A DNA stretch of 64,000 nt, taken from Eubacteriales bacterium. Its GTDB lineage: Bacteria > Bacillota > Clostridia > Peptostreptococcales > Anaerovoracaceae. A program made the translations under genes and the position numbers. A model generated the notes under the pieces. It searched no databases. It saw only the letters and a list, made by a program, of their open reading frames with translations, and was not told where the DNA came from. Positions 9,086 to 41,969 of the stretch are shown piece by piece; within the stretch, counting starts at the first letter, position 1; each line of letters opens with the position of its first letter. The stretch is taken from assembly GCA_028693645.1 (NCBI GenBank), contig JAQUUY010000002.1:1-64000 (forward strand), given 5' to 3'.

Positions 9086-9166
9086 ATGATCATCTCCCCT
9101 ATTGTCTATTTCTTGCTTTTAGTTTATCACAAGCATCTGTTTACAGTCAATCAGGGAGAATATCTC

Positions 9167-9490
9167 TTATCTTTCGCAGTTACAGCTGATATTTCCGGCT
9201 ATGATTTCTTTCCAATCGCCAATCACATCATGTGTCCAACAATCATCTGCGCCTGCCGCTTCTCTCATCGTAAGAGCAAAGATATAGGAAAGTTCCTCTA
9301 CCGTAGCGCCTGCATCCAGAGCCCCTTTAAAGTGTTTTAACACGCAGGGTTTGCTTCGTCCTTTGATGGAAAGGGCAAAGCAGATGAATTGAAATGTTTT
9401 TTCGTCAATCGGCATTTTTTCTTTATAAAGGGCATCGATTTCATCGAGTTTCGCGGTAAACTCAGGGAAAAATTCTTCAAGCATTCTCAT
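9167..9490 (-). CDS. AhpD/carboxymuconolactone decarboxylase-like small protein
   Basis: This 107-residue protein resembles the alkylhydroperoxidase AhpD / carboxymuconolactone decarboxylase fold. The segment GRSKPCVLKHFKGALDAGAT matches the CxxCxxxH active-site helix, except that the first cysteine is Ser46 while Cys49 and His53 are kept. That argues against classic AhpD disulfide peroxidase chemistry and leaves a single-thiol role possible. The gene starts three bases after the stop of a small thioredoxin-like gene, so the two are almost certainly co-translated and may work together in thiol redox. Confidence 0.75.
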   Translation of the reverse strand: MRMLEEFFPEFTAKLDEIDALYKEKMPIDEKTFQFICFALSIKGRSKPCVLKHFKGALDAGATVEELSYIFALTMREAAGADDCWTHDVIGDWKEIIAGNISCNCER

Positions 9491-23435: not shown

Positions 23436-25550
23436 CTATTTTAAATTATATTTCGTGAGACGATCATAAAATGCGGATCTGCTTAAATTAAGAAGGCGAG
23501 CCGCCGCGCTTTTATTTCCCTTTGCTTTTGTAAGCGCATCAAGAAGGATCTCACGTTCAAACTCATTGAACGAACTGCGATAAGATGCAGGAGCTTCTGC
23601 AAAATCCTGTTCTCCTTGCATGATTTGCGCCGGCAAGTTCTCGGGACAGATTTCTCCCTCCCAAACATAATTTGCCGCTCGTTCGATGGCATTTTCGAGT
23701 TCTCGAATATTACCCGGCCAGTTATAAGATTGCAGGGCTTTTTGTGCAGCCTCATTGATTCCTGTAACATTTGAGCCGAGAATCTCGTTGTACTTCTGAA
23801 TGAAGGCCTCTGCCAAGGGGATAATATCTTCATCCCGCTCCCTTAGCGGAGGTAATTGGAATCCGATGACATTTAGCCGATAAAACAAATCTTCTCTGAA
23901 TGTTTTTTTGGCGATTGCTTCACGAAGATCTTTATTGGTTGCCGCAATGATTCGAACATCGACCGTTTGCTTTTCGGTTCCTCCTACGCGAGTAAATTCT
24001 TTTTCTTGCAGAACCTGCAGTAGTTTGACCTGGATAGACAAGGGCATATCCCCGATTTCATCAAGGAAAATTGTACCCTTATGCGCTCTTTCAAAATAAC
24101 CCGGTTTTCCGTTTTTCAATGCCCCTGTAAAGGAACCCGGCGCATATCCAAATAATTCCGATTCAAAAAGTGTCTCCGGAATCGAAACACAATTTACTTT
24201 TATAAACGGATGCTTTGCTCTGGGGCTCGCTTCATGAATCCCTCGCGCAAACATATCTTTACCGACGCCGCTCTCTCCTGTAAGAAGAATCGTCGAACTG
24301 CTTCTGGCAATGAACATCGCGTCTTTTTTTAACTTCTTAAACTTAGTATTATTGGTAATAATCTGATCAAAGCGGCTGCAATTTGCACCGCGCTTCTCAA
24401 GTTCATCCCGATAATATTCGACCTGTTGATTCAAATAGAACCATTTTCGAGCAATTTCTTCCGTCACCGCATTGTCATTGAGGTAGACCGTACTTACGAT
24501 GCCTGTGATTTCAGCATCCCCATCATTTCCTTTTCGAAACGGAACATGAGATACGATGCACTTTTTCCCATAAATGTCGCATGATTCCACTTCCGCGGCG
24601 CCGGATTCCGTAATTTGTGCAGGGATGTCCGTTTTTAGAAGTTCCTGAATCGGGCTTCCAATGATAGTTTCACAAGCTTGAGAAACCAACTGGCAAGCTC
24701 TTTCGTTGACATATTTTATTGTTCCAAAGATGTCCGAAACAAAGACTCCATCCGACGAAGAGCTCAAAACGCCATCGATGGTGGTCTGCAAATCTTTGAC
24801 CAATTCTAATTCTCGAGCCATCAATTCCATATCAGAAACATCTACAAAAGCAAAACTCATTCCGATTTTTTCGTCATTTTCAATGATTGGAACTTGATTG
24901 ATCACGACAGGTAATGATCGGACGGTTCTTTTTAATCCAATATCAAGTTGATCTGAAATCGTAATCTCGGGGAAAACCTCTTGCACCGACCGGCCTTTTA
25001 CTTCTGAACATTTAAGGCCAAACATCGCTTCTGCAGCAGGGTTCACACGTACGATACGATCTTCCTGATCCGTGATAATAACTCCCTCGTAGTTGATTCG
25101 AAACAAAGATTCTAACATCGCGGAAGAAGCCGTTATAACATTCAGACTTTCACGGAGATACTCCGCGGTACCAATCACACCGACAACTTTATTCCCTCGA
25201 TCAAGAACAACGACATTATCAACAAGACTTTTTGTGACTCGAACGACAAGAGAATACTCGTCATAAGTCCTGTCTACGGTTACAAAAACAGGATTATTGA
25301 CCATATAATTTACACAAGGTGTATCTAAACCTGCTCCTTCAAGCAAGGCTTTAAAGAGTCTTTTTTTAGGAAACACCCCCACCAGATTTTCATCTTCATC
25401 AACGACAGGAAGGGTGCTGATTTTGTATTCCTGATAATATTTGATTACGGTCCTCAAAGTATCACCCAAACGCAGGACTTGAAAATTTTTATTCATCATC
25501 TGTCCTACAGTTAAGCGTGTAGCAGGATCCAAAGAATTGGAAAAATCCAT
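23436..25550 (-). CDS. Sigma-54-dependent transcriptional activator with CBS and PAS sensor domains
   Basis: This 704-residue enhancer-binding protein has two CBS repeats (about 10-135), two PAS domains (about 145-250 and 255-360), and an AAA+ domain (about 395-635). The AAA+ domain has Walker A GESGVGKD at 425, the sigma-54 contact loop GSFTGA at 472 and Walker B TIFLDEIG at 493. A Fis-type helix-turn-helix ends the protein (KSAAARLLNLSRSAFYDRL). CBS domains usually bind adenine nucleotides or related ligands, so energy or CoA-ester state may be sensed. The gene lies immediately downstream of the decarboxylase/acyl-CoA dehydrogenase block, which carries a good sigma-54 promoter at 36159-36175. 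It is therefore the likely activator of that block. No other regulator adjoins the block. Confidence 0.93.
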   Translation of the reverse strand: MDFSNSLDPATRLTVGQMMNKNFQVLRLGDTLRTVIKYYQEYKISTLPVVDEDENLVGVFPKKRLFKALLEGAGLDTPCVNYMVNNPVFVTVDRTYDEYSLVVRVTKSLVDNVVVLDRGNKVVGVIGTAEYLRESLNVITASSAMLESLFRINYEGVIITDQEDRIVRVNPAAEAMFGLKCSEVKGRSVQEVFPEITISDQLDIGLKRTVRSLPVVINQVPIIENDEKIGMSFAFVDVSDMELMARELELVKDLQTTIDGVLSSSSDGVFVSDIFGTIKYVNERACQLVSQACETIIGSPIQELLKTDIPAQITESGAAEVESCDIYGKKCIVSHVPFRKGNDGDAEITGIVSTVYLNDNAVTEEIARKWFYLNQQVEYYRDELEKRGANCSRFDQIITNNTKFKKLKKDAMFIARSSSTILLTGESGVGKDMFARGIHEASPRAKHPFIKVNCVSIPETLFESELFGYAPGSFTGALKNGKPGYFERAHKGTIFLDEIGDMPLSIQVKLLQVLQEKEFTRVGGTEKQTVDVRIIAATNKDLREAIAKKTFREDLFYRLNVIGFQLPPLRERDEDIIPLAEAFIQKYNEILGSNVTGINEAAQKALQSYNWPGNIRELENAIERAANYVWEGEICPENLPAQIMQGEQDFAEAPASYRSSFNEFEREILLDALTKAKGNKSAAARLLNLSRSAFYDRLTKYNLK

Positions 25551-25710
25551 TTTTCTTTTCTCCTTCCTTTCGTTGGGTCAAACTGTTTTAGCGCTCTGCG
25601 AGTCGATTCAAAAATAGACTCGCATACATAGTATAAAAGGAAAGTTACTCATCGTCAAGCAGTCGAAAAGCAGCCTGCTTTTTTCAAAGTGAAATAGTAT
25701 TTATCGAGGC

Positions 25711-25786: not shown

Positions 25787-27529
25787 TTAGCCTTTAATAA
25801 CTCTCGGTGTAAGCATCTGATGTACTGCGCAGATGGTCTTCGGATTCTGATAATAGGATCCAACGAACGCTTTGCAGTAATTCCTAAGTTCAGGCATATC
25901 AACGATTTCATCAACCATTCCTGTTTTTGCACAATAGGAAGGTCTGGATTTATCTTGATACTGCTGAATGATGTCATTCATCTTAGCAATCGTGCCATCG
26001 AGCGGCTTGCCCTCTTCCTGATCCTTGACCAGTCTACGAGCATAAGACGCAGCAGCAGCAGTTTCGCCGTGCATTACATAAATTTCAGTAGCAGCGGTTC
26101 CGATTGTGAACGCATTGTTGTTGTTGCCCTGGGGTCCGCCAAGCACATAATGTGCCGCCGCAGTACCTTTTCTGAGAACGATGGTCATCATCGGATTGTC
26201 GGATTGCTCGATAGAATAGATCAGGGACATTCCCAGTCCAAGCATTTCTGCTCTTTCTGCCGTATCACCTACATCAATACCTGTCGTGTCTTGTACCCAG
26301 ATCATTGGAATTCTGTCGCGTCCGCAAAGGGTTACAAACTCATTCATCTTAATGAGTCCTTCACGATAGAGTTTTCCGCCGATGCCCTGATAGTCAGCAT
26401 AGCTCGGATAATCAGTTCCAAGTGCACCCTGATTGTTTGCAATGAATCCGCAAACAAAACCATCAATTTTTGCAAGACCGCAATACATTTCAATTCCATA
26501 GTCAGGTTTGAATTCCATATGCTCACTGTTATCGAACAAACGAGCAAGAACTTCTGTCATGGAATAAGTACGCTTCTGGTTCATCGGTACGAGGCTGTAA
26601 AGGTCTTCTGCAGGATACTTCGGCTCAGCAGGCTCAGCAACGCGGAAGAAGGTCGGATCGTAAGCCGGCAAAGTGCCCATGTAACGCTTGATATCGTCAA
26701 GCACTTCTTCTTCGGTGTCACATACGTCTCTGATAAAGCCGGTTTCGCCCTGATGAATCTCAATACGTCCCGGAGGAGTTGCCTTGAATTTCTTGGTCTG
26801 TTCGATCAAAGCTTCTGCAACTTCGTCATCAATGTATCCCTTGGGGGACATACCGCTGACGATGCCGGCACCGCCTACAGCCATATTGCATTTTTTGTGT
26901 CCGATCAAGATGGTCGGGCTGATGGAATGATAGCCACCGCCTGCGGGGTTCGTTCCATAGATACCAACGATGATTGGAATTCCAAGCTTCTGAAGTTCAG
27001 CATGGCGGAAGAACGGAGTACCGCTTCCTCTACGATTCGGGTAAAGTCTTTCCTGTTCCATGAGCTTTGCTCCGCTGCAGTTAAGAACCCAAACGAGGGG
27101 AAGATGCATTCTCTTTGCGATATCGGTAACACGCAGAACGTTGTCTGCCTGACCGGAGAGCCATGCGCCAGCCATAACTTTGTTATTGGAAGCGATGATA
27201 ATCGCCCATTTGCCGTTGATTTTTCCGAGTCCGTCGATAACGCCTGTATTTCCTTCTTCGTTGAAGAGAGGATCGTAGATTGTGTGGAGCGGACACCATG
27301 TGCCGGGATCTACGAGATAGTCAAGCCTCTGCCAAGCTGTCCATTCGCCTTTTTCGTTCATGGCTTCTGTTGCTTTGCCATTGTTCTTTACGCGATCAAC
27401 TTCCTTTGCGAGTACTTCTTCTTCGGCTTTCAGTTCATCGATATTCTTTTGGAGTGTACGGGGTAATTCTTTTCCGATGCCCGGCATCTCTTTGAAGTAC
27501 GGGTGCAAGGGATATCCATATTGTGCCAT
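25787..27529 (-). CDS. gcdA: Glutaconyl-CoA decarboxylase alpha subunit (carboxyltransferase)
   Basis: This 580-residue carboxyltransferase closely resembles GcdA of Acidaminococcus over its whole length. Shared stretches include YPNRRGSGTPFF, GIPIIVGIYGTNPAGGGYHSI, GGAGIVSGMSPKG, TTGIDVGDTAE and GTAAAHYVLGGPQGN. In that enzyme the alpha subunit moves CO2 from glutaconyl-CoA to biotin on the carrier protein; GcdB then releases it while pumping Na+. AAAGGAG precedes the ATG. It is the last gene before a strong terminator and follows the first acyl-CoA dehydrogenase copy by 51 bases. Methylmalonyl-CoA or other acyl-CoA carboxyltransferases are alternatives, but likeness and gene context favour glutaconyl-CoA. 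Confidence 0.9.
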   Translation of the reverse strand: MAQYGYPLHPYFKEMPGIGKELPRTLQKNIDELKAEEEVLAKEVDRVKNNGKATEAMNEKGEWTAWQRLDYLVDPGTWCPLHTIYDPLFNEEGNTGVIDGLGKINGKWAIIIASNNKVMAGAWLSGQADNVLRVTDIAKRMHLPLVWVLNCSGAKLMEQERLYPNRRGSGTPFFRHAELQKLGIPIIVGIYGTNPAGGGYHSISPTILIGHKKCNMAVGGAGIVSGMSPKGYIDDEVAEALIEQTKKFKATPPGRIEIHQGETGFIRDVCDTEEEVLDDIKRYMGTLPAYDPTFFRVAEPAEPKYPAEDLYSLVPMNQKRTYSMTEVLARLFDNSEHMEFKPDYGIEMYCGLAKIDGFVCGFIANNQGALGTDYPSYADYQGIGGKLYREGLIKMNEFVTLCGRDRIPMIWVQDTTGIDVGDTAERAEMLGLGMSLIYSIEQSDNPMMTIVLRKGTAAAHYVLGGPQGNNNNAFTIGTAATEIYVMHGETAAAASYARRLVKDQEEGKPLDGTIAKMNDIIQQYQDKSRPSYCAKTGMVDEIVDMPELRNYCKAFVGSYYQNPKTICAVHQMLTPRVIKG

Positions 27530-27580: not shown

Positions 27581-28738
27581 TTATCTGTTGGGCTGATAAC
27601 CAAGCTCAATACCTGCGATGATGCCCATGTGAATGTTCGAAGTTCCTTCTAATGTTTCAAATTGTTTCGCATCGCGAAGCCATCTGCCACAGGGATATTC
27701 TGTCGAATAACCGTAGGAACCATAGATTTTCATTGCCATGTTTGCACCGTGTACTGCGCAGTTGCATCCGAATACTTTCGCAATCGATGTCGCCTGCTGA
27801 CTCGGTAATTTGTTTTCCTTCAGCCATGCTGCTCTGTATACCAAGAACTTCGCTGCTTCGTCTTCCAATTTCATTTCAGCAATCTGCTGCTGAATCATCT
27901 GGAATTTGCCGATTGGCTGGCCGAACTGTGTTCTTTCATTTGCATAGTTTACTGCACCGTCGAGGCAAGCTGCACCAAGTGCTGCTGATCCTGTTGCGCA
28001 ACCCATACGAGTGTTGTTCAACATCCACATGCAGATCTGGAAGCCTTTGTTCAAAGGTCCGAGCAAGTTTTCTTTCGGAATGATCGCATTTTCGAATACG
28101 AGTTCCGAAGTCGGTGCCGGCCACATACCTACCTTTGAGTGAATCGGAATTCTTTCGATTCCCGGTGTATTGTTATAGTCTACGATGAAGCAAGATAAGC
28201 CCTTTGCTCCGCCGCCTTCTGTGGTTGCTGCATAAACAAGTCCGATATCACAGGTGTGTCCGCCCGAAATCCACATTTTGGATCCGTTGAGTACAAAGTG
28301 ATCGCCTTTGTCGGTTGCGAAAGTCTTCATGCTGCCTACATCGGAACCGGAGTTCGCTTCTGTAATAGCAAAGCTTCCTACGGATTCTCCGCTGACAAGA
28401 CCCGGGATGTACTTTTCTTTCTGTTCGGGTGTTCCCCATTCATTGATGGTCATGGCCGGTCCCCAGCAGTTTCCGCTGATTGCCAGTCTCCAGGATGTGT
28501 GAACTTTGGCGATTTCGTATAATGCGGTGACGCCTTCCATCCAACCCATTCCGTTCCCGCCGTATTCTTCGGGAATGCTCCATCCGAGAAGTCCGAGTTC
28601 TCCCATTTTGGTCAGGATCTCTCTACGATAATGATGATTCTCTTCGTCTTCTTCAATAAACGGCGCGATTTCCTTTTCAGCAAAGTTGCGTGCCATTTCT
28701 TGAACCATCTGTTGTTCTTCTGTCAATCCAAAATTCAT
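27581..28738 (-). CDS. Acyl-CoA dehydrogenase, copy 1 (glutaryl-CoA dehydrogenase candidate)
   Basis: The protein has 385 residues with the acyl-CoA dehydrogenase fold: FAITEANSGSDVG and MWISGGHTCD for FAD/substrate binding, and the late catalytic Glu in FETLEGTSNIH. It differs clearly from the butyryl-CoA dehydrogenase at 33.4 kb. Placed between a biotin carrier and gcdA, it is a good candidate for a glutaryl-CoA dehydrogenase of the non-decarboxylating kind, feeding glutaconyl-CoA to the pump. AGGAGG precedes the ATG. It is almost identical to the gene at 34.6 kb, suggesting recent duplication or gene conversion. Substrate is inferred from context. Confidence 0.85.
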   Translation of the reverse strand: MNFGLTEEQQMVQEMARNFAEKEIAPFIEEDEENHHYRREILTKMGELGLLGWSIPEEYGGNGMGWMEGVTALYEIAKVHTSWRLAISGNCWGPAMTINEWGTPEQKEKYIPGLVSGESVGSFAITEANSGSDVGSMKTFATDKGDHFVLNGSKMWISGGHTCDIGLVYAATTEGGGAKGLSCFIVDYNNTPGIERIPIHSKVGMWPAPTSELVFENAIIPKENLLGPLNKGFQICMWMLNNTRMGCATGSAALGAACLDGAVNYANERTQFGQPIGKFQMIQQQIAEMKLEDEAAKFLVYRAAWLKENKLPSQQATSIAKVFGCNCAVHGANMAMKIYGSYGYSTEYPCGRWLRDAKQFETLEGTSNIHMGIIAGIELGYQPNR

Positions 28739-28818: not shown

Positions 28819-29028
28819 TTATTCGACTTCAGCTAAAGGAGCATCTTCTTCGACTTTATCGCCAACGTTGACAAGGATTGCTTTTACAACTCCTGCTTCT
28901 CCGTATACGACGTTTTCCATTTTCATTGCTTCGAGGATGAATGCTTCGTCATCTTCTGTGACTGTCTGACCTACTGTGAGGTTGATTTCGACGATTTTTC
29001 CTGCCATTGGGCTTGTAATGAATGCCAT
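28819..29028 (-). CDS. gcdC: Biotin carrier protein, copy 1
   Basis: This 69-residue biotinyl domain has the biotin-accepting Lys in EAMKMEN and a full set of flanking beta strands. It lacks the Ala/Pro-rich linker found in typical GcdC proteins, so it is a minimal free carrier. It would ferry carboxyl-biotin from GcdA to GcdB. It lies between gcdB and acyl-CoA dehydrogenase copy 1. Its partner at 35.8 kb differs mainly in residues 17-22 (NLTVGQT here). Confidence 0.9.
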   Translation of the reverse strand: MAFITSPMAGKIVEINLTVGQTVTEDDEAFILEAMKMENVVYGEAGVVKAILVNVGDKVEEDAPLAEVE

Positions 29029-29147: not shown

Positions 29148-30368
29148 TTACATTAATGGAATGACCGATACATAAATACCTGTGATGATAGCGGTAGTAA
29201 TAACACCGCAGATATTTGCGCCCATTGCGAACTGCAAAATGATGGAACGCTTATTGATTGCGGCCACTTCGTGCTGTGCAATTTTAGCAGTTGTCGGAAC
29301 ACAAGATATGCCTGCAATACCAACAGTCGGGTTGAAGTTTTTGTGATTGATGAAATAAACAAGATAACCACCGCAGATGCCGCCGATTGCAGAGACGGTG
29401 AGTGCAATCAATCCCAAGATTAAAAGAATTAAAACTTTGGGATTCATGATAGTGCTTGCTTCACAGAGAACTCCAAGCATGAGACCTAAGAAGAAGGTCG
29501 CTGCATAAAGGAATACATCTTCAATGAGTTTCGCATATTTAACCAAACCTGATTCTTTGATGGCATTAGCCAAGAAGAAGCTCATAAACAAAGGAGCTGC
29601 TACCGGGAATAATAGAGACAAAACAGTACAGCCAATGATATCAAATGCAACTTTTTCGCCCGAAGTAATCGTTGAAGTCTTTTTGGAAAGTTTGACCACG
29701 ATGCCTCTGTGCTCTTTGGGAATCATTGCACGGATTAAGAACGGATATCCACCATAAGTCAAGCTTAGGTACAAATACGCAATAATCGTAATCGGAACAA
29801 AAAGCTCCGGTGCAAGCATCAAAGAAGTAAAAAGAACCATGGGGCCGTCAGCTCCGCCTACGATAGCAGCGGAAGCAGATTCACCAAAATTCAAGCCCAT
29901 TGCTCGTGCAATCGGGAAGGTTACAATCGAGCCAAGTTCTGCACAAAGTGCAATCAGCATACTGGTGAACGGGAAGCGAAGGACATTTCCTACATCAGCA
30001 ATGATGCCGATTCCCATGAAGACCAAGCAAGCAATCAAGTTGTTTCCAAAAGTAAGCGTATAAATCGGCTGCAAGAAGTCGATCTGAAGGATATTCATAA
30101 GTGCGTTCGTCTCGGTGACAAGAGGCGCTACAAAAAGAGTCCCTGTATCCGAACCGGTAATGGTGGGATCTGTAAAAAACAATACACCGGCATTGACCGC
30201 CGCCATACCAAAGCCCATAGGAATCATGATTAATGGTTCCAGGGTACCTCTTTGACCTGCCCAAACAAGAAGGATGCCGAGAACGATTAATACGATTCTG
30301 GCAATTACGATATCTGTTTCTTGAGCAAAAAATGTTCCAAAGCCTTGGAATAATGTTGCTAAATTCAT
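29148..30368 (-). CDS. gcdB: Na+-translocating decarboxylase beta subunit
   Basis: This 406-residue membrane protein of the OadB/MmdB/GcdB family has about nine to eleven helices. The conserved motifs GGADGPMVLFTS and the ISCVPTTAKIAQ stretch near the C terminus carry the Asp and Ser residues used in Na+ transport. It decarboxylates carboxy-biotin and exports Na+. Its ribosome site GGAGG lies inside the last codons of the preceding 52-residue gene, three bases from that gene's stop, which suggests translational coupling. Na+ exported here could drive PutP and the NhaC proteins. Confidence 0.93.
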   Translation of the reverse strand: MNLATLFQGFGTFFAQETDIVIARIVLIVLGILLVWAGQRGTLEPLIMIPMGFGMAAVNAGVLFFTDPTITGSDTGTLFVAPLVTETNALMNILQIDFLQPIYTLTFGNNLIACLVFMGIGIIADVGNVLRFPFTSMLIALCAELGSIVTFPIARAMGLNFGESASAAIVGGADGPMVLFTSLMLAPELFVPITIIAYLYLSLTYGGYPFLIRAMIPKEHRGIVVKLSKKTSTITSGEKVAFDIIGCTVLSLLFPVAAPLFMSFFLANAIKESGLVKYAKLIEDVFLYAATFFLGLMLGVLCEASTIMNPKVLILLILGLIALTVSAIGGICGGYLVYFINHKNFNPTVGIAGISCVPTTAKIAQHEVAAINKRSIILQFAMGANICGVITTAIITGIYVSVIPLM

Positions 30369-30371
30369 TTA

Positions 30372-30530
30372 CTATGCCTCCTCTCCCTCTTTAACAGCAG
30401 TAACAGCCTCTTTTTTGGCAGAAATACGCTGAATCCCAGCGATAAGTCCCGTCATGAGAGCGGCAATACAACAACCTACGACAATTGCCAAGAAATATAC
30501 TTGTACGGCAAAAGATATTGATTCGCCCAT
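30372..30530 (-). CDS. 52-residue membrane microprotein, possible decarboxylase small subunit
   Basis: The protein begins MGESISFAVQVYFLAIVVGC, with one transmembrane helix (about 8-32) and a short charged tail. Pump complexes of this kind use a small one-helix subunit (OadG/GcdD) to hold the membrane and carrier parts together. This protein is in the right place and about half the usual size, and it lacks the long Pro/Ala tail. AAAGGA lies nine bases before the ATG. The end of the gene contains the gcdB ribosome site. Confidence 0.75.
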   Translation of the reverse strand: MGESISFAVQVYFLAIVVGCCIAALMTGLIAGIQRISAKKEAVTAVKEGEEA

Positions 30531-30566: not shown

Positions 30567-30665
30567 TTATTTCAGTTCTCTTCTAATGTTGACGACAAAG
30601 ATAGCTACAACAACTGCAAATATCCCTACCATCAGGCCTATGCTCAACGGTGTTAATTCGAACAT
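30567..30665 (-). CDS. 32-residue membrane microprotein
   Basis: A single hydrophobic helix (LSIGLMVGIFAVVVAIFVV) follows a short N terminus and is followed by a basic end. AAAAAGGAG lies nine to ten bases ahead of the ATG, a very good ribosome site. The gene sits 36 bases before the 52-residue gene. It is far too short for ordinary gene calling and would commonly be missed. It may be a second small subunit or stabiliser of the Na+ pump. Confidence 0.65.
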   Translation of the reverse strand: MFELTPLSIGLMVGIFAVVVAIFVVNIRRELK

Positions 30666-30719: not shown

Positions 30720-31463
30720 CTATTCTATAAAAAATCTCCAGGCGCAAAACCACTCTTCGGGATGATTGTCAGGTGGACATCCAATGCACTCTGTTTTGAT
30801 TCTGGAATCGATTGCTCGCGCAAAATTTGTGTACTCTACCATCCCCGCAGATTTGCAAGGATAATCATCCATTCCCTTGCTTTTGCGCGCCGATTGTACA
30901 CGGCAGTCATTCATTTGGAATAAAATACTATTAGGGCGTTCGTCGATAATCGACTGAATGTTTATTTTCGCATACATACGATATTGCAGCGCTTTTTTCA
31001 GGCCTTCTATTCCTGCTTGTTCCGGTAGATTTAGCAAGCGCTTGATTGACCATGCTTCAAATGGCGAAAACCAAGCCCAGCATGAGTCATTGCATCTTTT
31101 CGCATCAAGCATGCCATACTGAGATTCCACAGCCTGAAACCAAACGCCATCTCCGGCCAACCAGTTTATTCCAAGCCCTTCAATAAGCGCCTCGAGCTTT
31201 TCCTTTGGCATATTCAAAAGCGGCTCCGGGATTCCATCAATCAGATCAAATCCAAGCAGTTTTCCCAATCGCTTCAACTGGATGCCTCTGCTCTTATCGT
31301 AAGCCGTTCCCATGATTTCAAGCGCTCTTTCAAAGCCCATCTGGTGTTCTACTTCTTTGAACCACAAAACATGATGCATCACCGTTCGGTGAAACATATC
31401 AATGGCCATTTCAGCTAATTCACGTTGGCTTGTTTCCTGCTCAATTGTTTCCTTTTGTTCCAT
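30720..31463 (-). CDS. DUF6125-type protein
   Basis: This 247-residue soluble protein resembles DUF6125 proteins of anaerobes. It has an N-terminal alpha-helical part (HRTVMHHVLWFKEVEHQMG), a middle WFSPFEAWS motif and a conserved cysteine-rich end (DDYPCKSAG and TECIGCPPD). The cysteines and histidines could bind a metal. It is in line with the flanking genes of the decarboxylase block, between etfA and the microproteins, with a perfect hairpin before it. AGGGGG lies ahead of the ATG. Function is unknown; its setting suggests a role in acyl-CoA oxidation or electron transfer. Confidence 0.7.
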   Translation of the reverse strand: MEQKETIEQETSQRELAEMAIDMFHRTVMHHVLWFKEVEHQMGFERALEIMGTAYDKSRGIQLKRLGKLLGFDLIDGIPEPLLNMPKEKLEALIEGLGINWLAGDGVWFQAVESQYGMLDAKRCNDSCWAWFSPFEAWSIKRLLNLPEQAGIEGLKKALQYRMYAKINIQSIIDERPNSILFQMNDCRVQSARKSKGMDDYPCKSAGMVEYTNFARAIDSRIKTECIGCPPDNHPEEWFCAWRFFIE

Positions 31464-31571: not shown

Positions 31572-32549
31572 TTATCCAAGCTTTTTGAATTCTTCGGTCA
31601 AGAGGGGTACGATTTCGAACAAATCTCCAACGATTCCGTAGTCAGCAAGAGTAAAGATGTTGGCTTCGGGATCCTTATTGATCGCAACGATGACCTTCGA
31701 AGAACCCATACCTGCAAGGTGCTGGATTGCTCCGGAGATTCCGCAAGCGATATAAAGTGTCGGGGAAACGGTTTTTCCGGTCTGTCCGACCTGGAATTTC
31801 TGCTCAATCCATCCGGCATCGACTGCAGCACGGGAAGCTCCAACAGCAGCTCCGATGACATCAGCACATGCTTCGAGGATTACATAATTCTCTGGGCCTT
31901 TCATTCCGCGGCCACCGGAGATGATTACATTTGCTTCGATCAGCTCAGGACGAGCGGAAGCGACAAGTGCAATCTCCTTAACGATAGCTCTGAGGTCAGC
32001 AGCATCGATTTCAGCAGTTTCATTAACTACTTCGGGCTGGCTTGCTTTCGCAACGACGGGGAATGTATTCGGACGAATCGTAGCGAGGATAGGTCTTGCA
32101 TTTGCAGTTACTTCCGCAAACGCTTTGCCGCCATAAATCGGGCGTTTGAAAGTCAAGAAGTTTGCTTCGTCATATTCCATACCTGTGCAGTCAGAAGCCA
32201 TACCAACTCCGAGACGATGTGCAAGACGAGGTGCAAGGTCCTTACCAATAGCAGTATTTCCAAGCAAAACAGCCTGTGGCTCTTCTTTTCTGATGATTTT
32301 ATTCAATGCAGAGGTGTAAGCACCAGTCGTGTAATCAGCCAATTTGTCATCGTCGACAAGAATGACTTTATCTGCGCCATATTCAGCAACAGTTTTCGCA
32401 AGATCAGCAATTCCCTTACCAAGGATTACTGCTACGAGCGGCTCACCGGTCTTATCTGCGATCGTACGTGCCTGGCTCAGAAGTTCGAGCGAGACTTTAC
32501 GGATTTCTAATTTTGTTTGTTCAACAATGATCCAAATTCCTTTTGCCAT
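31572..32549 (-). CDS. etfA: Electron transfer flavoprotein alpha subunit
   Basis: This 325-residue ETF alpha chain has the FAD-binding domain in its second half: SGGRGMKGPENY, VGASRAAVDAG, QVGQTGKTVSP and the late AINKDPEANIF. It pairs with EtfB to carry electrons between acyl-CoA dehydrogenases and other carriers. AGGAGG precedes the ATG, 15 bases after the etfB stop. Its place between butyryl-CoA dehydrogenase and the pump genes suggests it moves electrons from the glutaryl-CoA dehydrogenase candidate to crotonyl-CoA reduction. Bifurcating behaviour cannot be judged by eye. Confidence 0.95.
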   Translation of the reverse strand: MAKGIWIIVEQTKLEIRKVSLELLSQARTIADKTGEPLVAVILGKGIADLAKTVAEYGADKVILVDDDKLADYTTGAYTSALNKIIRKEEPQAVLLGNTAIGKDLAPRLAHRLGVGMASDCTGMEYDEANFLTFKRPIYGGKAFAEVTANARPILATIRPNTFPVVAKASQPEVVNETAEIDAADLRAIVKEIALVASARPELIEANVIISGGRGMKGPENYVILEACADVIGAAVGASRAAVDAGWIEQKFQVGQTGKTVSPTLYIACGISGAIQHLAGMGSSKVIVAINKDPEANIFTLADYGIVGDLFEIVPLLTEEFKKLG

Positions 32550-32564
32550 GTCAATTCCTCCTCC

Positions 32565-33335
32565 CTATATAACCTTTGCTTCTTCGCGCAAAAGTTTTGC
32601 TAATTCCGCAGCCTGCTCAGCGGGCTCACCAGACATTTTCTTGCCGGCTGTACGCGGTGTCGGTAAGCTGAACTTCGGAGCACTCATCTTGCTCGCTACA
32701 TCAGCAGCACTGATTCCAAGGTCTGCAAGAGTTAAAACTTTAAGTTCTTTTTTCTTTGCTTTCATGATACCCATCATGCTCGGATAACGGGGCTCATTGA
32801 GACCTTTCTGAGCAGTGAGAACAGCAGGGATGCTGAGTTCAAGAGTTTCTGTTCCGCCATCGATTTCGCGAACAACAGTAGCTTTGTCTCCCTCGATATC
32901 GAGTTTGAGGATGCTGCTGACGGAAGGAAGATTCAAGGAATCTGCCAAACGAACGGCAACCTGACTCGAACCATCATCTACAGCGATACGGCCTGCGAGG
33001 ATCAGATCATAAGGAATCTGCGCAACCGCTTTTGCAAGGATTTCAGCGACAGCCCATTCATCAACATTTTCTAAGGTAGGATCATTGACTAAAACGCCCT
33101 GATCGCAACCCATAGCAAGTGCAGTTCTGATGGATGCTTCAACTTTATCTCCACCAACGCTGACAACGGTAACTTCTCCGCCAAATTTTTCTTTGAGCTT
33201 GAGAGCTTCTTCAATTGCAAATTCGTCATAAGGGTTAATGACAACGTTTACACCGGTCGCATCGATTTTTCCGCCGGTTAAAACGATTTTTGCTTCTGTA
33301 TCAAAAGTCTGTTTGAGACTAACGACAATATTCAT
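32565..33335 (-). CDS. etfB: Electron transfer flavoprotein beta subunit
   Basis: This 256-residue ETF beta chain opens with MNIVVSLKQTFDTEAKI and contains the NPYDEFAIEEAL and DLILAGRIAVDDGSSQVA nucleotide-binding patterns. It forms the heterodimer with EtfA encoded 15 bases downstream. Its length and order (bcd-etfB-etfA) match the usual clostridial butyryl-CoA dehydrogenase set, although the rest of the classical crotonase/thiolase operon is absent here. Confidence 0.95.
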   Translation of the reverse strand: MNIVVSLKQTFDTEAKIVLTGGKIDATGVNVVINPYDEFAIEEALKLKEKFGGEVTVVSVGGDKVEASIRTALAMGCDQGVLVNDPTLENVDEWAVAEILAKAVAQIPYDLILAGRIAVDDGSSQVAVRLADSLNLPSVSSILKLDIEGDKATVVREIDGGTETLELSIPAVLTAQKGLNEPRYPSMMGIMKAKKKELKVLTLADLGISAADVASKMSAPKFSLPTPRTAGKKMSGEPAEQAAELAKLLREEAKVI

Positions 33336-33364: not shown

Positions 33365-34507
33365 TTAATCCTTAAGGATATTTGCAGCGACAACGACACG
33401 CTGGATTTCATTTGTTCCTTCATAGATCTGAGTGATCTTAGCATCACGCATCATGCGCTCAACCGGATAGTCACGAGTATATCCGTATCCACCAAGAATC
33501 TGAACTGCTTCAGATGTTACGAAGTTCGCAGTATCGCCAGCAAATGCTTTTGCCATTGCGGAATACTTGGAAACGGGGAGATGCTGGTCAGCCATGTAGC
33601 ATGCTTGATATACGAGAAGACGAGCTGCTTCGATCTGAATCGCCATGTCAGCAAGTTTGAACTGAATGACAGGCATCTGGGAAAGAGTCATACCAAACTG
33701 GGATCTTTCCTTGGAATACTTCAAAGCTTCCTCATATGCGCCCTGTGCGATACCGAGTGCCTGGGATGCGATGCCGATTCTTCCGAAATCAAGAGTAGTC
33801 ATTGCGATTTTGAAGCCCTGACCTTCTTCTCCGAGGAGGTTTTCAGCAGGAATATGTACATCTTCGAAAACGAGTTCATACGTTGCGGAAGATCTGATAC
33901 CCATCTTCTTTTCTTTCTTTCCGAAAGTGAAGCCCGGGGTTCCCTTTTCAAGGATGAATGCAGCGATTCCTTTGTTGCCCTTGCTCTTGTCCATCTGTGC
34001 GGTGATTACATAGGTATCTGCATAATAACCGTTGGTGATGAAGATTTTGGAACCGTTGATGATGTATTCGTCGCCTACTTTAACAGCAGTTGTACGTGTT
34101 CCGGAAGCATCGGATCCTGCAAGTGATTCAGTAAGTCCGAACGCACCCATTTTTTCGCCGGTAGCAAGCGGAGCAAGATACTTTTGCTTCTGTGCTTCTG
34201 TTCCGAACTTGTAGATCGGATTTGCGCAAAGGCTGGAGTGAGCAGAGATTGTAACACCCAAGGATGCATCTACTCTGGAAAGTTCTTCGATTGTGATTGC
34301 ATAGGAGATGTAATCAGCGCCTACGCCATTATACTCTTCGGGGAACGTAACGCCAGCAAGTCCGAGTTCTCCGCATTTTTTCCACAGGTCCATGGGGAAT
34401 TTTTCTTCTTCGTCACGTTCTTCTGCTCCTGGCTTTACTTCTTCTTCAGCAAAGTCACGAACCATTTTACGCATCATGATATGATCGTCATTCAATTCAA
34501 ATTTCAT
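33365..34507 (-). CDS. bcd: Butyryl-CoA dehydrogenase
   Basis: This 380-residue short-chain acyl-CoA dehydrogenase closely resembles clostridial Bcd: [28 protein letters not shown], and the catalytic Glu in [10 protein letters not shown]. It would interconvert butyryl-CoA and crotonyl-CoA using EtfAB, encoded next. AGAGG precedes the ATG. In this setting it probably reduces crotonyl-CoA made by the decarboxylase, disposing of the electrons from the upstream oxidation. Confidence 0.9.
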
Positions 34508-34622: not shown

Positions 34623-35780
34623 TTATCTGTTGGGCTGATAACCAAGCTCAATACCTGCGATGATACCCATGTGAATGTTCGAAGTTCCTTCTAATGTTTC
34701 AAATTGTTTCGCATCGCGAAGCCATCTGCCACAGGGATATTCTGTCGAATAACCGTAGGAACCATAGATTTTCATTGCCATGTTTGCACCGTGTACTGCG
34801 CAGTTGCATCCGAATACTTTCGCAATCGATGTCGCCTGCTGACTCGGTAATTTGTTTTCCTTCAGCCATGCTGCTCTGTATACCAAGAACTTCGCTGCTT
34901 CGTCTTCCAATTTCATTTCAGCAATCTGCTGCTGAATCATCTGGAATTTGCCGATTGGCTGGCCGAACTGTGTTCTTTCGTTTGCATAGTTTACTGCACC
35001 GTCGAGGCAAGCTGCACCAAGTGCTGCTGATCCTGTTGCGCAACCCATACGAGTGTTGTTCAACATCCACATGCAGATCTGGAAGCCTTTGTTTAAAGGT
35101 CCGAGCAAGTTTTCTTTCGGAATAACCGCATTTTCAAATACGAGTTCCGAAGTCGGTGCCGGCCACATACCTACCTTTGAGTGAATCGGAATTCTTTCGA
35201 TTCCCGGTGTATTGTTATAGTCTACGATGAAGCAGGATAAGCCCTTTGCTCCGCCGCCTTCTGTGGTTGCTGCATAAACAAGTCCGATATCACAGGTGTG
35301 TCCGCCCGAAATCCACATTTTGGATCCGTTGAGTACAAAGTGATCACCTTTGTCTGTTGCGAACGTCTTCATGCTGCCTACATCGGAACCGGAGTTTGCT
35401 TCTGTGATAGCAAAGCTTCCTACGGATTCTCCGCTGACAAGACCCGGGATGTACTTTTCTTTCTGTTCGGGTGTTCCCCATTCATTGATGGTCATAGCCG
35501 GGCCCCAGCAGTTTCCGCTGATTGCCAGTCTCCAAGATGTGTGAACTTTGGCGATTTCGTATAATGCGGTAACGCCTTCCATCCAACCCATTCCGTTCCC
35601 GCCGTATTCTTCGGGAATGCTCCATCCGAGAAGTCCGAGTTCTCCCATTTTGGTCAGGATCTCTCTACGATAATGATGATTCTCTTCGTCCTCTTCAATA
35701 AACGGCGCGATTTCCTTTTCAGCAAAGTTGCGTGCCATTTCTTGAACCATCTGTTGTTCTTCTGTCAATCCAAAATTCAT
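34623..35780 (-). CDS. Acyl-CoA dehydrogenase, copy 2 (glutaryl-CoA dehydrogenase candidate)
   Basis: The protein has 385 residues and differs from the 27.6-kb copy by a single residue (Val for Ile in FENAVIP). All active-site motifs are intact, including the catalytic Glu in LEGTSNIH. It follows a biotin carrier by 24 bases and precedes bcd and etfBA, so it would be among the first proteins made from the sigma-54 promoter at 36.2 kb. Keeping two almost identical copies suggests high demand or ongoing gene conversion. Confidence 0.85.
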   Translation of the reverse strand: MNFGLTEEQQMVQEMARNFAEKEIAPFIEEDEENHHYRREILTKMGELGLLGWSIPEEYGGNGMGWMEGVTALYEIAKVHTSWRLAISGNCWGPAMTINEWGTPEQKEKYIPGLVSGESVGSFAITEANSGSDVGSMKTFATDKGDHFVLNGSKMWISGGHTCDIGLVYAATTEGGGAKGLSCFIVDYNNTPGIERIPIHSKVGMWPAPTSELVFENAVIPKENLLGPLNKGFQICMWMLNNTRMGCATGSAALGAACLDGAVNYANERTQFGQPIGKFQMIQQQIAEMKLEDEAAKFLVYRAAWLKENKLPSQQATSIAKVFGCNCAVHGANMAMKIYGSYGYSTEYPCGRWLRDAKQFETLEGTSNIHMGIIAGIELGYQPNR

Positions 35781-35804: not shown

Positions 35805-36014
35805 TTATTCGATTTCTGCTAAAGGAGCATCTTCTTCGACTTTATCGCCAACGTTGACGAGGATTGCTTTTACAACTCCTGCTTCTCCGTATACGACGTT
35901 TTCCATTTTCATTGCTTCGAGGATGAATGCTTCGTCATCTTCTGTGACCATTTGACCTAATTTGATGTTGATTTCAACAATTTTTCCGGCCATGGGGCTT
36001 GTAATAAATGCCAT
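35805..36014 (-). CDS. gcdC: Biotin carrier protein, copy 2
   Basis: This 69-residue minimal biotinyl domain has the same EAMKMEN biotin site as copy 1 and five substitutions, four of them clustered at NIKLGQM. It is the first gene after the sigma-54 promoter. GGAGG lies ahead of the ATG. The two carriers may serve one pump or two carboxyltransferase complexes. Confidence 0.9.
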   Translation of the reverse strand: MAFITSPMAGKIVEINIKLGQMVTEDDEAFILEAMKMENVVYGEAGVVKAILVNVGDKVEEDAPLAEIE

Positions 36015-36158
36015 TTTGGTTCCTCCTTATTTTTTAAAACAATTTGTATAAACATATTCTGGACTTTATTACCTGTGTGGTAATCGTTGTACAATATTTT
36101 TCGTGGATATTGATACAGCATGTTATAAAACCCAGTCTTTGATACCAGCTATATTATT

Positions 36159-36175
36159 CGCAAGAAGCATGCCAT
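36159..36175 (-). promoter_or_regulatory. Sigma-54 promoter of the acyl-CoA / decarboxylase block
   Basis: On the minus strand the sequence is TGGCATGCTTCTTGCGA. The -24 element TGGCATG and -12 element TTGC have GG and GC separated by 10 bases, and the sequence differs from the TGGCACG-N4-TTGCW consensus at two positions. Transcription would start near 36148, about 135 bases before the biotin-carrier gene. The sigma-54 activator encoded at 23.4 kb is the evident partner. Confidence 0.75.
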
Positions 36176-36187
36176 CACAAGCATTTA

Positions 36188-36412
36188 TTGTCCGGAATTG
36201 ATAATTGTTTGTCAATTCAGACATCTTTCTCCCTTTTTTGACCAGACATATCTTTGAATTTCAACAACTTTCGTGATTTTTATTATATTTGATCCTAAAA
36301 AAATATTTTTCTAAAGCTACTTTTTTTCTTTTGAGGGCTGAAGGTTTTTAAACTGTCCTCCTCGAAAGTGTACGGCAAACCGGACAACTGTACGGTTACT
36401 TGTCCGATTGTA
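36188..36412 (-). promoter_or_regulatory. Probable activator-binding array upstream of the sigma-54 promoter
   Basis: A TGT(A/C)CGG motif recurs: TGTACGG at 36369 and 36389 (exactly 20 bases apart), TTGTCCG at 36400, inverted CCGGACAA at 36380, and TTGTCCGG at 36188. CGGACAA (36381-36387) and TTGTCCG (36400-36406) form an inverted repeat around 12 bases. The main cluster lies about 195-235 bases upstream of the -24 box, a normal distance for sigma-54 enhancer sites. TTGTCCGG also occurs at 37888, ahead of the CoA-transferase gene. No gene is seen in 36015-36484. Confidence 0.55.
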
Positions 36413-36484
36413 TGACAAAAAAAAGACAACCCGCAGATTTGATCATTTTCAAATCCGCGGGTCGCCGCACAATGGTGCTTATTT

Positions 36485-37813
36485 TTATTTTTTCGTCCAG
36501 ATTCTAAGTTCTTTTGCTTCAGCAATCAGCTCATCTCTGAAGTCCGGATGCGCAATGGAAATCAATGCTTCCGCACGCTGCCAAGATGTCTTTCCTTTCA
36601 GATTGACCTTTCCGTATTCAGTCACGACGTACTGAACTCCCGGTCTGGTGTCTGTGATGATGGATCCCAAAGTAATCATACCCTTGATACGGGAATGTGT
36701 CTTTCCTTGTTTGTCTGTGAACGTCGAAGGCAAGCAGATAAAGGTTTTTCCGCCCTTTGAATTGTATGCGCCTTCAACAAAGTCAAGTTGTCCGCCGGCA
36801 CCGCTGATAATGTAGGGGCCTGCGCTCTCAGAGCAAACCTGTCCGGACAAATCGATTTCAACGCAGCTGTTGATTGAAATCAGCTGGTCAATTTTCGATG
36901 CCATGAACGGGTGATTGGTATAATCAACAGGATATGCCGCAATGGCCGGGTTGTCATTCATGAAGTCATAAAGCTTCTGTGAACCGGCAGCAAACGAATA
37001 TGCCATTCTGCCTTTATCAATATTCTTACGGCTTCCGTTGACTCTTCCCTTTTCGACCATATCAACAAAACCGTCAACCAACATTTCTGTGTGAATACCA
37101 AGATCTTTCAGGTCGGAATCTGCAATCATGGCGCCAAGGGCATTCGGCATTCCGCCGATACCAAGCTGGATGCAGGAGCCATCATGGATTTCAGATAAAA
37201 CGTGGTCTGCAATTTTTTTATCGATGTCGGAAGGTGTTGCTGACGGCAGGACAGGAAGTCCGCTGTGGCCACCTTCAACAATGTAATCGACTTTCGAAAT
37301 GTGGATATTATGTTCATAACCACCATGAACCTTTGGCATATCTTCATTTACTTCGACGATGACAGTACGTGCGCCATCGATTGCTGCCGCGTAGTGAGAA
37401 ATGGTAACACCAAAATTGAAGTATCCGTGAGCATCCATCGGTGCAACCTGAATCGCAACAACATCTGTCTGTCCGTTTTCTCTAATGTAACGCGGAAGTT
37501 CGGAATATTTGATTGGAAGATAAAAAGCCATATTCTTCTGTGCCAATTTACGTTCGTAGCCGCTCATATGCATGCTGTTCCATGTAAAATGGTCACGATT
37601 CGGATCATTTTCGATAAAAGGCAGGGGTTTCAGAATTACGCCTCCACGAAAATTAACATTTTCAAGTTCTTCTTTACGGCGATCGATTGCATCAGCCAAC
37701 AAGCCTGCAAAGCTTGCGCCCCACGCAAATTCGACCCAGTCTCCGCTACGAATTGCTTTTACAGCTTCATCGGCAGAAACGCACTTTTTTTTGTAATCAG
37801 CCATCATCGTCAT
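36485..37813 (-). CDS. Acetyl-CoA hydrolase/transferase family CoA-transferase
   Basis: This 442-residue protein is of the butyryl-CoA:acetate / 4-hydroxybutyrate CoA-transferase type. Motifs seen are [14 protein letters not shown], the glycine loop [10 protein letters not shown], the likely catalytic Glu in HTEMLVDG, and [18 protein letters not shown]. It moves CoA between acyl-CoA and a free acid without using ATP. The ATG at 37813 is chosen because GAGGTG lies six bases before it; in-frame ATGs 13 and 10 codons earlier (37852, 37843) lack a ribosome site. Placed upstream of the block, it could activate glutarate with CoA from butyryl-CoA or acetyl-CoA. The actual acid pair is unknown. Confidence 0.88.
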
Positions 37814-38093
37814 TTCATTCACCTCTACATTTTTATTTGGCATCAAAGACATAGAGTGTATTTGTTATCACCATGCTGTAAGCGTGATTGTCCGGTCAAC
37901 GTATACCAATTCCACGAAAATCTGATACACTGCTATCAACCTATACCGAAAAAACATTATGCCCCCGATTATAACAAGAGCATGCTTCATGGTGGCATAT
38001 TTATAACCTTTTTGTAATCATCTGTCAATGTTTTTTTTAAATTTCACGCCATCCCAAGGTGAAAATAATCATTTTTGCTACTTCTTCCACTTG
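37814..38093 (-). other. Upstream region of the CoA-transferase gene
   Basis: No gene is seen. TTGTCCGG at 37888-37895 repeats the motif found in the array at 36.2-36.4 kb. A loose sigma-54-like spacing (GG-N10-GC on the minus strand, 37995-38008) is present, but the -24 sequence is poor. No clear sigma-A promoter was picked out. Confidence 0.35.
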
Positions 38094-40442: not shown

Positions 40443-40460
40443 CAAATTAATAGAAAAGCA

Positions 40461-40528
40461 ATATGGAACTGACGGATTAGTGGAAATAACCACATGGACC
40501 ATATTGGATAAAGTCGACCGTCTGGGCA
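40461..40528 (+). promoter_or_regulatory. ZTP (pfl) riboswitch aptamer 1
   Basis: The fold matches the ZTP/ZMP riboswitch. ATATGG (40461-40466) pairs with CCATAT (40499-40504), and GTGG/CCAC is an internal hairpin. GACGG (40471-40475) pairs long-range with CCGTC (40518-40522), which continues into the conserved CTGGGCA. The class senses ZMP/ZTP, the signal of low 10-formyl-tetrahydrofolate. Confidence 0.85.
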
Positions 40529-40558
40529 ATGTTTTCTTTGTTCAGGGCGGTTTTTTTT
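40518..40558 (+). terminator. Expression-platform terminator of riboswitch 1
   Basis: CCGTCTGGGCAA (40518-40529) can pair, with G-T pairs, to TTGTTCAGGGCGG (40538-40550), followed by eight T. It uses the same CCGTC bases as the aptamer, so ligand binding should block termination and turn the gene on. Confidence 0.8.
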
Positions 40559-40590
40559 ATTATCCGGAGCAAGAAAACAACTAAAAAATC

Positions 40591-40659
40591 CTATGGAACT
40601 GACGGATACTAGTGGAAAAACCACGTGAACCATAGGTGTTGAAGCCGACCGTCTGGGCA
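40591..40659 (+). promoter_or_regulatory. ZTP (pfl) riboswitch aptamer 2
   Basis: This is a second full copy 130 bases after the first. CTATGG (40591-40596) pairs with CCATAG (40630-40635), GTGG/CCAC forms the inner hairpin, and GACGG (40601-40605) pairs with CCGTC (40649-40653), followed by CTGGGCA. The core bases match aptamer 1, while the stem bases differ with compensating changes, which supports a real fold. Confidence 0.85.
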
Positions 40660-40697
40660 AAGAGGAATCACTCTGCTCAGATGGTCTATTTTATTTC
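40647..40697 (+). terminator. Expression-platform terminator of riboswitch 2
   Basis: GACCGTCTGGGCA (40647-40659) pairs with TGCTCAGATGGTC (40674-40686), allowing G-T pairs, and is followed by TATTTTATTT. It too competes with the aptamer's CCGTC strand. Confidence 0.78.
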
Positions 40698-40739: not shown

Positions 40740-41969
40740 ATGAAAAATCGTTGGTTGATCGCGTTATCTGCAATTGGAATCCATATCTGCATTGGCAGTG
40801 TCTACGCTTGGAGCGTTTTGACAAAACCAATCATGAGCCAGATGGGGTTTAGTCTAAAATCAACACAATGGACCTTTTCACTTGCCATTCTGTTTCTCGG
40901 CCTATCAGCAGCCTTTCTTGGAGGATTCGTTGAAAAAATGGGACCGCGAAAATCAGGGCTTTTGTCGGCATGCCTATTTGGCGCAGGCATGCTTGGAACC
41001 GGCTTAGCAATCTATTTGGGCAGTCTTCCCCTGATGTATCTATTCTATGGCGTGATTGGGGGAATGGGTCTTGGAATCGGCTACATTACACCGGTGTCAA
41101 CTTTGGTAAAGTGGTTTCCGAATCGTCGCGGTTTCGCCACAGGTCTTGCCATTATGGGCTTCGGATTTGCAAGCTTACTTGCCGGGCCAATTATGCAGCG
41201 CTTGATTGGATCCTATGGTCTAGTGCTTACATTTGTAATCTTAGGAATCATTTATTTGGCTATCATGGTTGCCGCTTCGCTGTATCTTGCTCCGCCGAAA
41301 AAGACAGAAACGTCCCTTGTAAATTCGCCGGTTCAGAAAACCACGAATTCTCTGACTCAGTTCACCGCAAAAGAAGTTCTTCGGGCATGGCAGTTTTACG
41401 CCCTCTGGTGCATCTTTTTTATCAATATCACCTGTGGGATTGGCCTCCTCAGCGTTGCCTCCCCTATGGCACAGGATGTAGCAAACCTGTCGCCTCAAGC
41501 GGCAGCCTCCATGGTCGGTCTGATCGGCCTGTTTAATGGACTCGGTCGAATTGCTTGGGCTTCTGTTTCAGACTACATTGGCCGGGGAACAACATATATT
41601 GCCTTCTTTTCCATTCAAATAATAGCCTTCTATCAATTATCTTCCACTACAAATGCTTTCGCCTTCCAACTCTTGGTTCTTCTTATCATTACTTGTTACG
41701 GGGGTGGATTTGCTGCGATGCCCGCATATCTCAGTGATTGTTTCGGTACCAAAGAATTGAGTGCGATTCATGGCAAAATCCTTACTGCTTGGGCTTCTGC
41801 CGGAATCGTCGGCCCCTTACTTGTCGCATGGATTCGAGAAGAAACCAGCAGTTATACAAGCACCTTGCATATTTTTTCAATCTGCTTTGTATTTTCCTTG
41901 CTCATTGCAATTTACTTGAAAGTAAAAACAAGCCCTCAACGCGCAAAAGAACTATGCCCTATCGAATAA
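40740..41969 (+). CDS. OFA-family MFS transporter (oxalate/formate antiporter type)
   Basis: This 409-residue, 12-helix major facilitator is of the OFA group. The opening GIHICIGSVYAWSVLTKPI, GMGLGIGYITPVSTLVKWFPNRRGFATG, and the second-half GLFNGLGRIAWASVSDYIGR are typical. Members move oxalate/formate or similar monocarboxylates. AAGGAG lies seven bases before the ATG. Two ZTP riboswitches precede it, so expression should rise when 10-formyl-tetrahydrofolate runs short; import of formate, the source of that one-carbon unit, would be a sensible response. It ends 11 bases inside the convergent flavoprotein gene. Confidence 0.88.
   Translation: MKNRWLIALSAIGIHICIGSVYAWSVLTKPIMSQMGFSLKSTQWTFSLAILFLGLSAAFLGGFVEKMGPRKSGLLSACLFGAGMLGTGLAIYLGSLPLMYLFYGVIGGMGLGIGYITPVSTLVKWFPNRRGFATGLAIMGFGFASLLAGPIMQRLIGSYGLVLTFVILGIIYLAIMVAASLYLAPPKKTETSLVNSPVQKTTNSLTQFTAKEVLRAWQFYALWCIFFINITCGIGLLSVASPMAQDVANLSPQAAASMVGLIGLFNGLGRIAWASVSDYIGRGTTYIAFFSIQIIAFYQLSSTTNAFAFQLLVLLIITCYGGGFAAMPAYLSDCFGTKELSAIHGKILTAWASAGIVGPLLVAWIREETSSYTSTLHIFSICFVFSLLIAIYLKVKTSPQRAKELCPIE

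Follow-up and report, generated by a model that had tools for sequence, protein, structure and literature searches.

The Gene Block and Its Probable Pathway

Gene content suggests that the organism belongs to a clostridial-type lineage of anaerobic fermenters. The window (the whole 64-kb stretch of DNA that was analysed) carries on its minus strand a block of genes in the order gcdC-acd-bcd-etfB-etfA-DUF6125-two small membrane ORFs-gcdB-gcdC-acd-gcdA, with a sigma-54 activator gene at its far end. The first gene, gcdC copy 1 (35805–36014), encodes a biotin carrier subunit (Pfam Biotin_lipoyl). It is followed by acd copy 1 (34623–35780), for a glutaryl-CoA dehydrogenase nearly identical to that of copy 2, and by bcd (33365–34507), for a butyryl-CoA dehydrogenase whose best PDB relatives are 5ol2, 4l1f, and 1buc. 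The genes etfB (32565–33335) and etfA (31572–32549) are assigned from sequence and conserved gene order, while the DUF6125 protein (30720–31463; PF19620) is found in most homologous blocks. Two membrane-type small ORFs of 32 and 52 amino acids (30567–30665 and 30372–30530) may, as read from their sequences, encode a small decarboxylase subunit and a delta (GcdD-like) subunit, respectively. Beyond them lie gcdB (29148–30368), the membrane sodium-pump subunit (Pfam OAD_beta and Na+-transporting decarboxylase models), gcdC copy 2 (28819–29028), acd copy 2 (27581–28738), and gcdA (25787–27529), encoding the carboxyltransferase subunit of glutaconyl-CoA decarboxylase (PDB 3gf3/1pix, E 4e-235). A hairpin at about 25747–25715 separates gcdA from the activator gene.

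On the other side of the block is a butyryl-CoA:acetate CoA-transferase-like gene (36485–37852), set apart by an intrinsic terminator on the minus strand (36425–36466; an 18-bp stem followed by eight T). Between this terminator and gcdC copy 1 is an intergenic region of 470 bp. The CoA-transferase gene has its own upstream sigma-A-type promoter sequence (TTGACA-N17-TATAAA) and therefore need not belong to the regulon described below.

The best PDB relative of acd copy 2 is the non-decarboxylating glutaryl-CoA dehydrogenase of Desulfococcus multivorans (3mpi), and its best NCBIfam model is GlutCoADH_Des, at 396 bits, under the equivalog cut-off of 470. The residue before the catalytic glutamate has a role in distinguishing decarboxylating from non-decarboxylating glutaryl-CoA dehydrogenases; it is leucine in Acd instead of the valine of 3mpi, and no tyrosine occurs there. 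Acd is probably of the non-decarboxylating (Desulfococcus) type. The D. multivorans enzyme is, reportedly from its structure paper, likewise coupled to a Na+-pumping decarboxylase.

The simplest reading of the block is a route from glutaryl-CoA through glutaconyl-CoA and crotonyl-CoA to butyryl-CoA. The initial annotation had described a Na+-pumping decarboxylase fermentation block; the decarboxylase is indeed there, with GcdA, GcdB, and the biotin carrier encoded together, but the generic label gives way to a glutaryl-CoA route of the 5-aminovalerate/glutarate type. A glutamate fermentation was considered and rejected, since the block lacks 2-hydroxyglutaryl-CoA dehydratase and contains glutaryl-CoA dehydrogenase. 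The same two features separate it from the Na+-translocating glutaconyl-CoA decarboxylase systems of Acidaminococcus fermentans and Clostridium symbiosum, with which it otherwise shares GcdA (3gf3, 1pix), GcdB, and the biotin carrier GcdC. The blocks of relatives additionally contain an ornithine/acetylornithine-type aminotransferase, a second class-III aminotransferase, and a CoA-acylating aldehyde dehydrogenase, all of which fit a conversion of 5-aminovalerate via glutarate semialdehyde to glutaryl-CoA. The substrate may be 5-aminovalerate, glutarate, or a lysine-derived compound. In the window's own genome, aminotransferase and aldehyde dehydrogenase genes lie outside the block on a separate contig (C116); when this operon was tested as a second target, neither a sigma-54 box nor an upstream activating sequence (UAS) was found.

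The gcdC-acd pair is duplicated within the block (36014–34623 and 29028–27581), with 98.4% DNA identity over 1177 bp. This duplication also occurs in the related genome G065, at 99.6% identity. In both cases the two copies resemble each other more closely than they do those of the other genome, a pattern that points to gene conversion or to repeated duplication. Before gcdC copy 2 the window has a sigma-A-like sequence (TTGAGA-N18-TATAAT, 29096–29067, minus strand), suggesting an internal promoter; at the position before its second gcdC, G065 instead carries another sigma-54 box, accompanied by a UAS array.

A Predicted Sigma-54 Promoter and Its Upstream Activating Sequence

The block is preceded by a predicted sigma-54 (-24/-12) promoter, TGGCATGCTTCTTGC, on the minus strand at 36160–36174. 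The sequence TGGCATG-CTTC-TTGC had been picked out from the start for its GG/GC spacing, and a motif scan bears this out exactly: GG and GC stand 10 bases apart within TGGCAY...TTGC, matching the GG-N10-GC consensus. The exact pattern TGGCAYRN4TTGC occurs twice in the 64-kb window, against 0.16 expected, and the other match (12923–12937) sits within coding sequence. In the whole assembly (1.68 Mb in 198 contigs, 89% complete), 10 exact matches were counted vs. 2 for a reversed control pattern; eight of the 10 are intergenic and directed at the downstream gene, mostly on contigs that bear activators. The genome also encodes sigma-54 itself (rpoN; PF00309, E 1e-16). From the position of the box, transcription is predicted to start near 36148 and to produce a leader of about 134 nt.

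Some 200 bp upstream of the box lies an array of TGTMCGG half-sites, arranged just as initially described, two of them exactly 20 bp apart and one inverted. Its core UAS, TGTCCGGTTTGCCGTACA, is a TGT-N12-ACA palindrome on the minus strand (36386–36369), 212 bp upstream of the -24 box, and reads TGTCCGG-TTTG-CCGTACA. The TGTACGG half-sites are at 36369–36375 and 36389–36395, and the inverted TGTCCGG half-site is at 36380–36386. Farther upstream of the core, the additional half-sites (36389–36407) comprise CCGTACA at 36389–36395, 20 bp from its neighbor, and TCGGACA at 36401–36407. Four half-sites thus fall within the 470-bp intergenic region, compared to 0.055 in shuffled sequences, and many relatives show the 20-bp repeat as well. 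With up to two mismatches allowed, the UAS pattern TGTAYGGNNAACCGTACA has a single match in the whole 1.68-Mb genome, which is this core. In the search for UAS sites, a strict single-orientation pattern finds only half of them, and not the window's own, so that the palindromic form was used instead.

Across relatives the core is found again as CCGTACAGTTGTATGNNNAACCGTACAG, and the conserved operator reads TGTAYGG-N4-CCGTACA, with frequent repetition at 20-bp intervals. What stood of the operator first proposed is accordingly the array, and what fell is the single site TTGTCCGG as its unit. Neither the proximal TTGTCCGG (36188) nor an imperfect inverted repeat at about 36187–36222 was seen in the relatives, and both fall outside the conserved element; the repeat had been weighed as a second operator and was given up for its lack of conservation. 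Other TGTMCGG matches in the window (for example at 30502 and 37889) were set aside, having no convincing sigma-54 box. No RNA element was found by Rfam between 35950 and 38200.

The Activator

The protein encoded at 23436–25550 on the minus strand is a sigma-54 activator (EBP). As the initial annotation had it, CBS and PAS domains are present: Pfam recognizes CBS, two PAS domains, an AAA+ domain (PF00158, 230 bits) with the loop GSFTGA, and a Fis-type helix-turn-helix (HTH; PF02954). GSFTGA is an accepted variant of the GAFTGA-type loop (PMC6615313). All 12 orthologs inspected keep it, together with a closely similar recognition helix, SRSAFY-(D/E)-(R/K)-L. Among curated families the best score is that of PrdR, the activator of proline reductase (NCBIfam NF041552), but at 477 bits it stays under the cut-off of 795, and the target of PrdR is prd rather than a glutaryl-CoA block. 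A consensus scan places a candidate sigma-A-type promoter for the gene (TTGACG-N17-TATACT) at 25630–25658 on the minus strand.

The sensory half was modeled as a CBS pair followed by tandem PAS domains (pLDDT 74, pTM 0.45). The matches obtained, AcuB with AMP/ADP among them, are not strong enough to point to a ligand. Adenine nucleotides are frequent ligands of CBS pairs, which makes an energy-state input to the activator plausible.

Conservation Among Relatives

A further 20 genomes of the family have orthologs of the activator (E ≤ 1e-150), and two more have pieces of it; the full-length orthologs are 62–81% identical, and the contig search gave at least one close named ortholog among the matches listed. 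Conservation of the motifs in relatives, named at the outset as the check on the reading, is what was found. Twelve leading regions were chosen solely for their gene position (g66 gcdC0, g80a, g80b, g55a, g55b, four from g25, g8a, g13, and Desulfosporosinus lacus) and scored with thresholds of at least 10 of 12 positions for the sigma-54 box and at most two mismatches for the UAS. In 11 of them a sigma-54 box has a TGT-N12-ACA UAS 69–293 bp upstream (that of g13 is weak, with two mismatches), while 1,000 shuffles per region gave no such pair. Another five regions, drawn from a UAS search, do not count as independent cases, and the choice of several others followed motif matches.

Homologous blocks with the box, kept ahead of orthologous genes, and with the TGT-N12-ACA array occur in many genera of the family as well as in D. 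lacus. The motifs stay constant while spacing (69–293 bp) and flanks vary across these genera, and their conservation is therefore not mere sequence relatedness. In G065, three promoters have the pair: those of the block, of the second gcdC, and of the aminotransferase. In D. lacus the neighbors of the activator are acd-hbd-crt-thl and gcdB-gcdC-gcdA, which make up an oxidative version of the block. Some genomes speak against the reading: in genus g8 (L220, L227) the UAS array adjoins gcdC, with the sigma-54 box located farther upstream, and in genus g30 the genome G029 combines a sigma-54 box with a weak UAS, a search for an activator ortholog finding none.

Perfect UAS palindromes also occur inside the operon, in the gcdB/acd gap of L133 (13877–13894) and just before the activator gene of L039 (6381–6398). 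No sigma-54 box of at least 11 of 12 positions was found beside either, and they possibly serve autoregulation. In L228 (genome G034, 9060–9247), a UAS and a sigma-54 box stand before the gene of a small membrane protein, which by eye looks SatP-like, and before etfB-etfA, a possible further member of the regulon. Directly upstream of the activator gene, L053 (9021–9851), L034 (11908–12738), and L038 (16613–17443) carry a biotin-protein-ligase-like gene, a neighbor that would fit the biotinylation of GcdC.

Proposed Mechanism of Control

The best-supported reading of these data is the standard one for sigma-54 promoters, in which the activator, bound to a UAS some 200 bp off, loops to the promoter and opens it, and it is very probable that the block is switched on in this manner by the activator encoded at 23436–25550. 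Made from its own sigma-A-type promoter, the activator would bind the TGT-N12-ACA array (36369–36412) in oligomeric form and loop to the sigma-54 RNA polymerase held at 36160–36174. Once its CBS/PAS part senses the signal, ATP hydrolysis via the GSFTGA loop would open the promoter and turn on gcdC-acd-bcd-etfBA-DUF6125-gcdB-gcdC-acd-gcdA. The products of the block would in turn carry glutaryl-CoA to glutaconyl-CoA, then with Na+ pumping to crotonyl-CoA, and finally to butyryl-CoA.

Could the promoter and UAS be real but driven by another protein? The genome encodes eight sigma-54 activators, counting this one, and operators of the TGT-N10-12-ACA type are common to many clostridial activators (PMC6615313). 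Control by one of the seven others is nevertheless highly improbable, as the UAS occurs nowhere else in the genome and tracks this very activator: over 351 genomes of the family, it is present (with at most one mismatch) in 13 of the 23 that have the activator vs. 16 of the 328 that do not (Fisher p = 3e-10). The activator gene adjoins the block in many genomes, the UAS is directly beside that gene in G001, G054, and G256, and HTH and UAS are conserved jointly. G252 has the block with neither sigma-54 box nor UAS, and a search for an activator ortholog found none there (best match 39%), although the absence of the activator is not certain because the assembly is 76% complete.

Highly improbable, too, is that the block is transcribed mainly from a sigma-A promoter such as TTGACA-N17-GACAAT (36215–36187), the palindromes binding a repressor or other regulator. 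This site fits 10 of 12 positions of the sigma-A consensus and is overlapped by the imperfect inverted repeat at 36187–36222. Sigma-A-like matches are however not above background in the region (17 vs. 22 in shuffles), and it is the -24/-12 box, not the repeat, that recurs in relatives. Part of the block may still be expressed without sigma-54, given the sigma-A-like sites at 36215–36187 and 29096–29067. As for a chance motif or a functionless ancestral sequence, single motifs of this size do arise randomly in large genomes, as in the 16 activator-less genomes with a UAS match, but a box and UAS that persist in many genera although spacer and flanks change, and that never pair in shuffles, are far from chance and leave that idea a negligible probability.

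Relation to Known Regulons

The proposed sigma-54 control of the block by the adjoining activator matches the pattern of the clostridial regulons reconstructed by Nie et al. (2019; PMC6615313), for example those of CrbR, LeuR, and PrdR. These have one-component PAS activators, mostly adjoining their targets, TGT-N10-12-ACA operators in many groups, often multicopy, 100–250 bp upstream of a TTGGCAT-N5-TTGCT promoter, and acyl-CoA and amino-acid fermentation genes as targets. The 39 regulons cover fermentation and Stickland genes, and CBS is among the sensory domains. None of the 39 tabulated regulons has gcd or glutaryl-CoA dehydrogenase genes, however, and the core TGTAYGG-N4-CCGTACA differs from their operators. 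The view that such control is little described thus holds for a glutaryl-CoA regulon, but not for the mode of control, which is well described in clostridial fermentation operons (PMC6615313). A 2025 survey reports acyl-CoA dehydrogenases and ETF as enriched under sigma-54 in Clostridia, in passages that do not name a glutaryl-CoA regulon (PMC12316311). Within the open-access literature, the target and the assignment of the regulator appear new and the mode of control ordinary. An operator, a regulator, and a metabolic target are hereby given to an activator absent from the 39-regulon survey, and sigma-54 control is linked to a Na+-pump-coupled glutaryl-CoA route to butyrate.

Of the butyrate routes, a review of gut bacteria recognizes four, none via 5-aminovalerate (PMC5133246), and in Clostridium viride 5-aminovalerate goes to valerate (PMC8473912). 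A broader proposal, put forward only tentatively, is that of a dedicated and horizontally mobile glutaryl-CoA regulon, fermentative to butyrate in this family and oxidative in D. lacus. Its CBS-pair/PAS activator would read the adenine-nucleotide or acyl-CoA state to gate the Na+-pumping decarboxylase, and in relatives the regulon would define a 5-aminovalerate-to-butyrate route outside the four recognized pathways. Operator and regulon are directly testable, the system being carried by a named type strain, D. lacus DSM 15449.

Other Elements of the Window and Genome

Elsewhere in the window, on the plus strand, tandem ZMP/ZTP riboswitch aptamers (40455–40534 and 40585–40665; 55 and 57 bits, cut-off 39) lie upstream of a gene for a 409-aa MFS transporter (40740–41969), of the oxalate/formate-antiporter type by reading. 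On contig C69 (L234) of the same genome, sigma-54 boxes at 1655–1669 (minus strand) and 3927–3941 (plus strand), beside another sigma-54 activator, precede genes for 3-aminobutyryl-CoA ammonia lyase and 3,5-diaminohexanoate dehydrogenase, so that lysine fermentation also looks to be under sigma-54 control in this genome.
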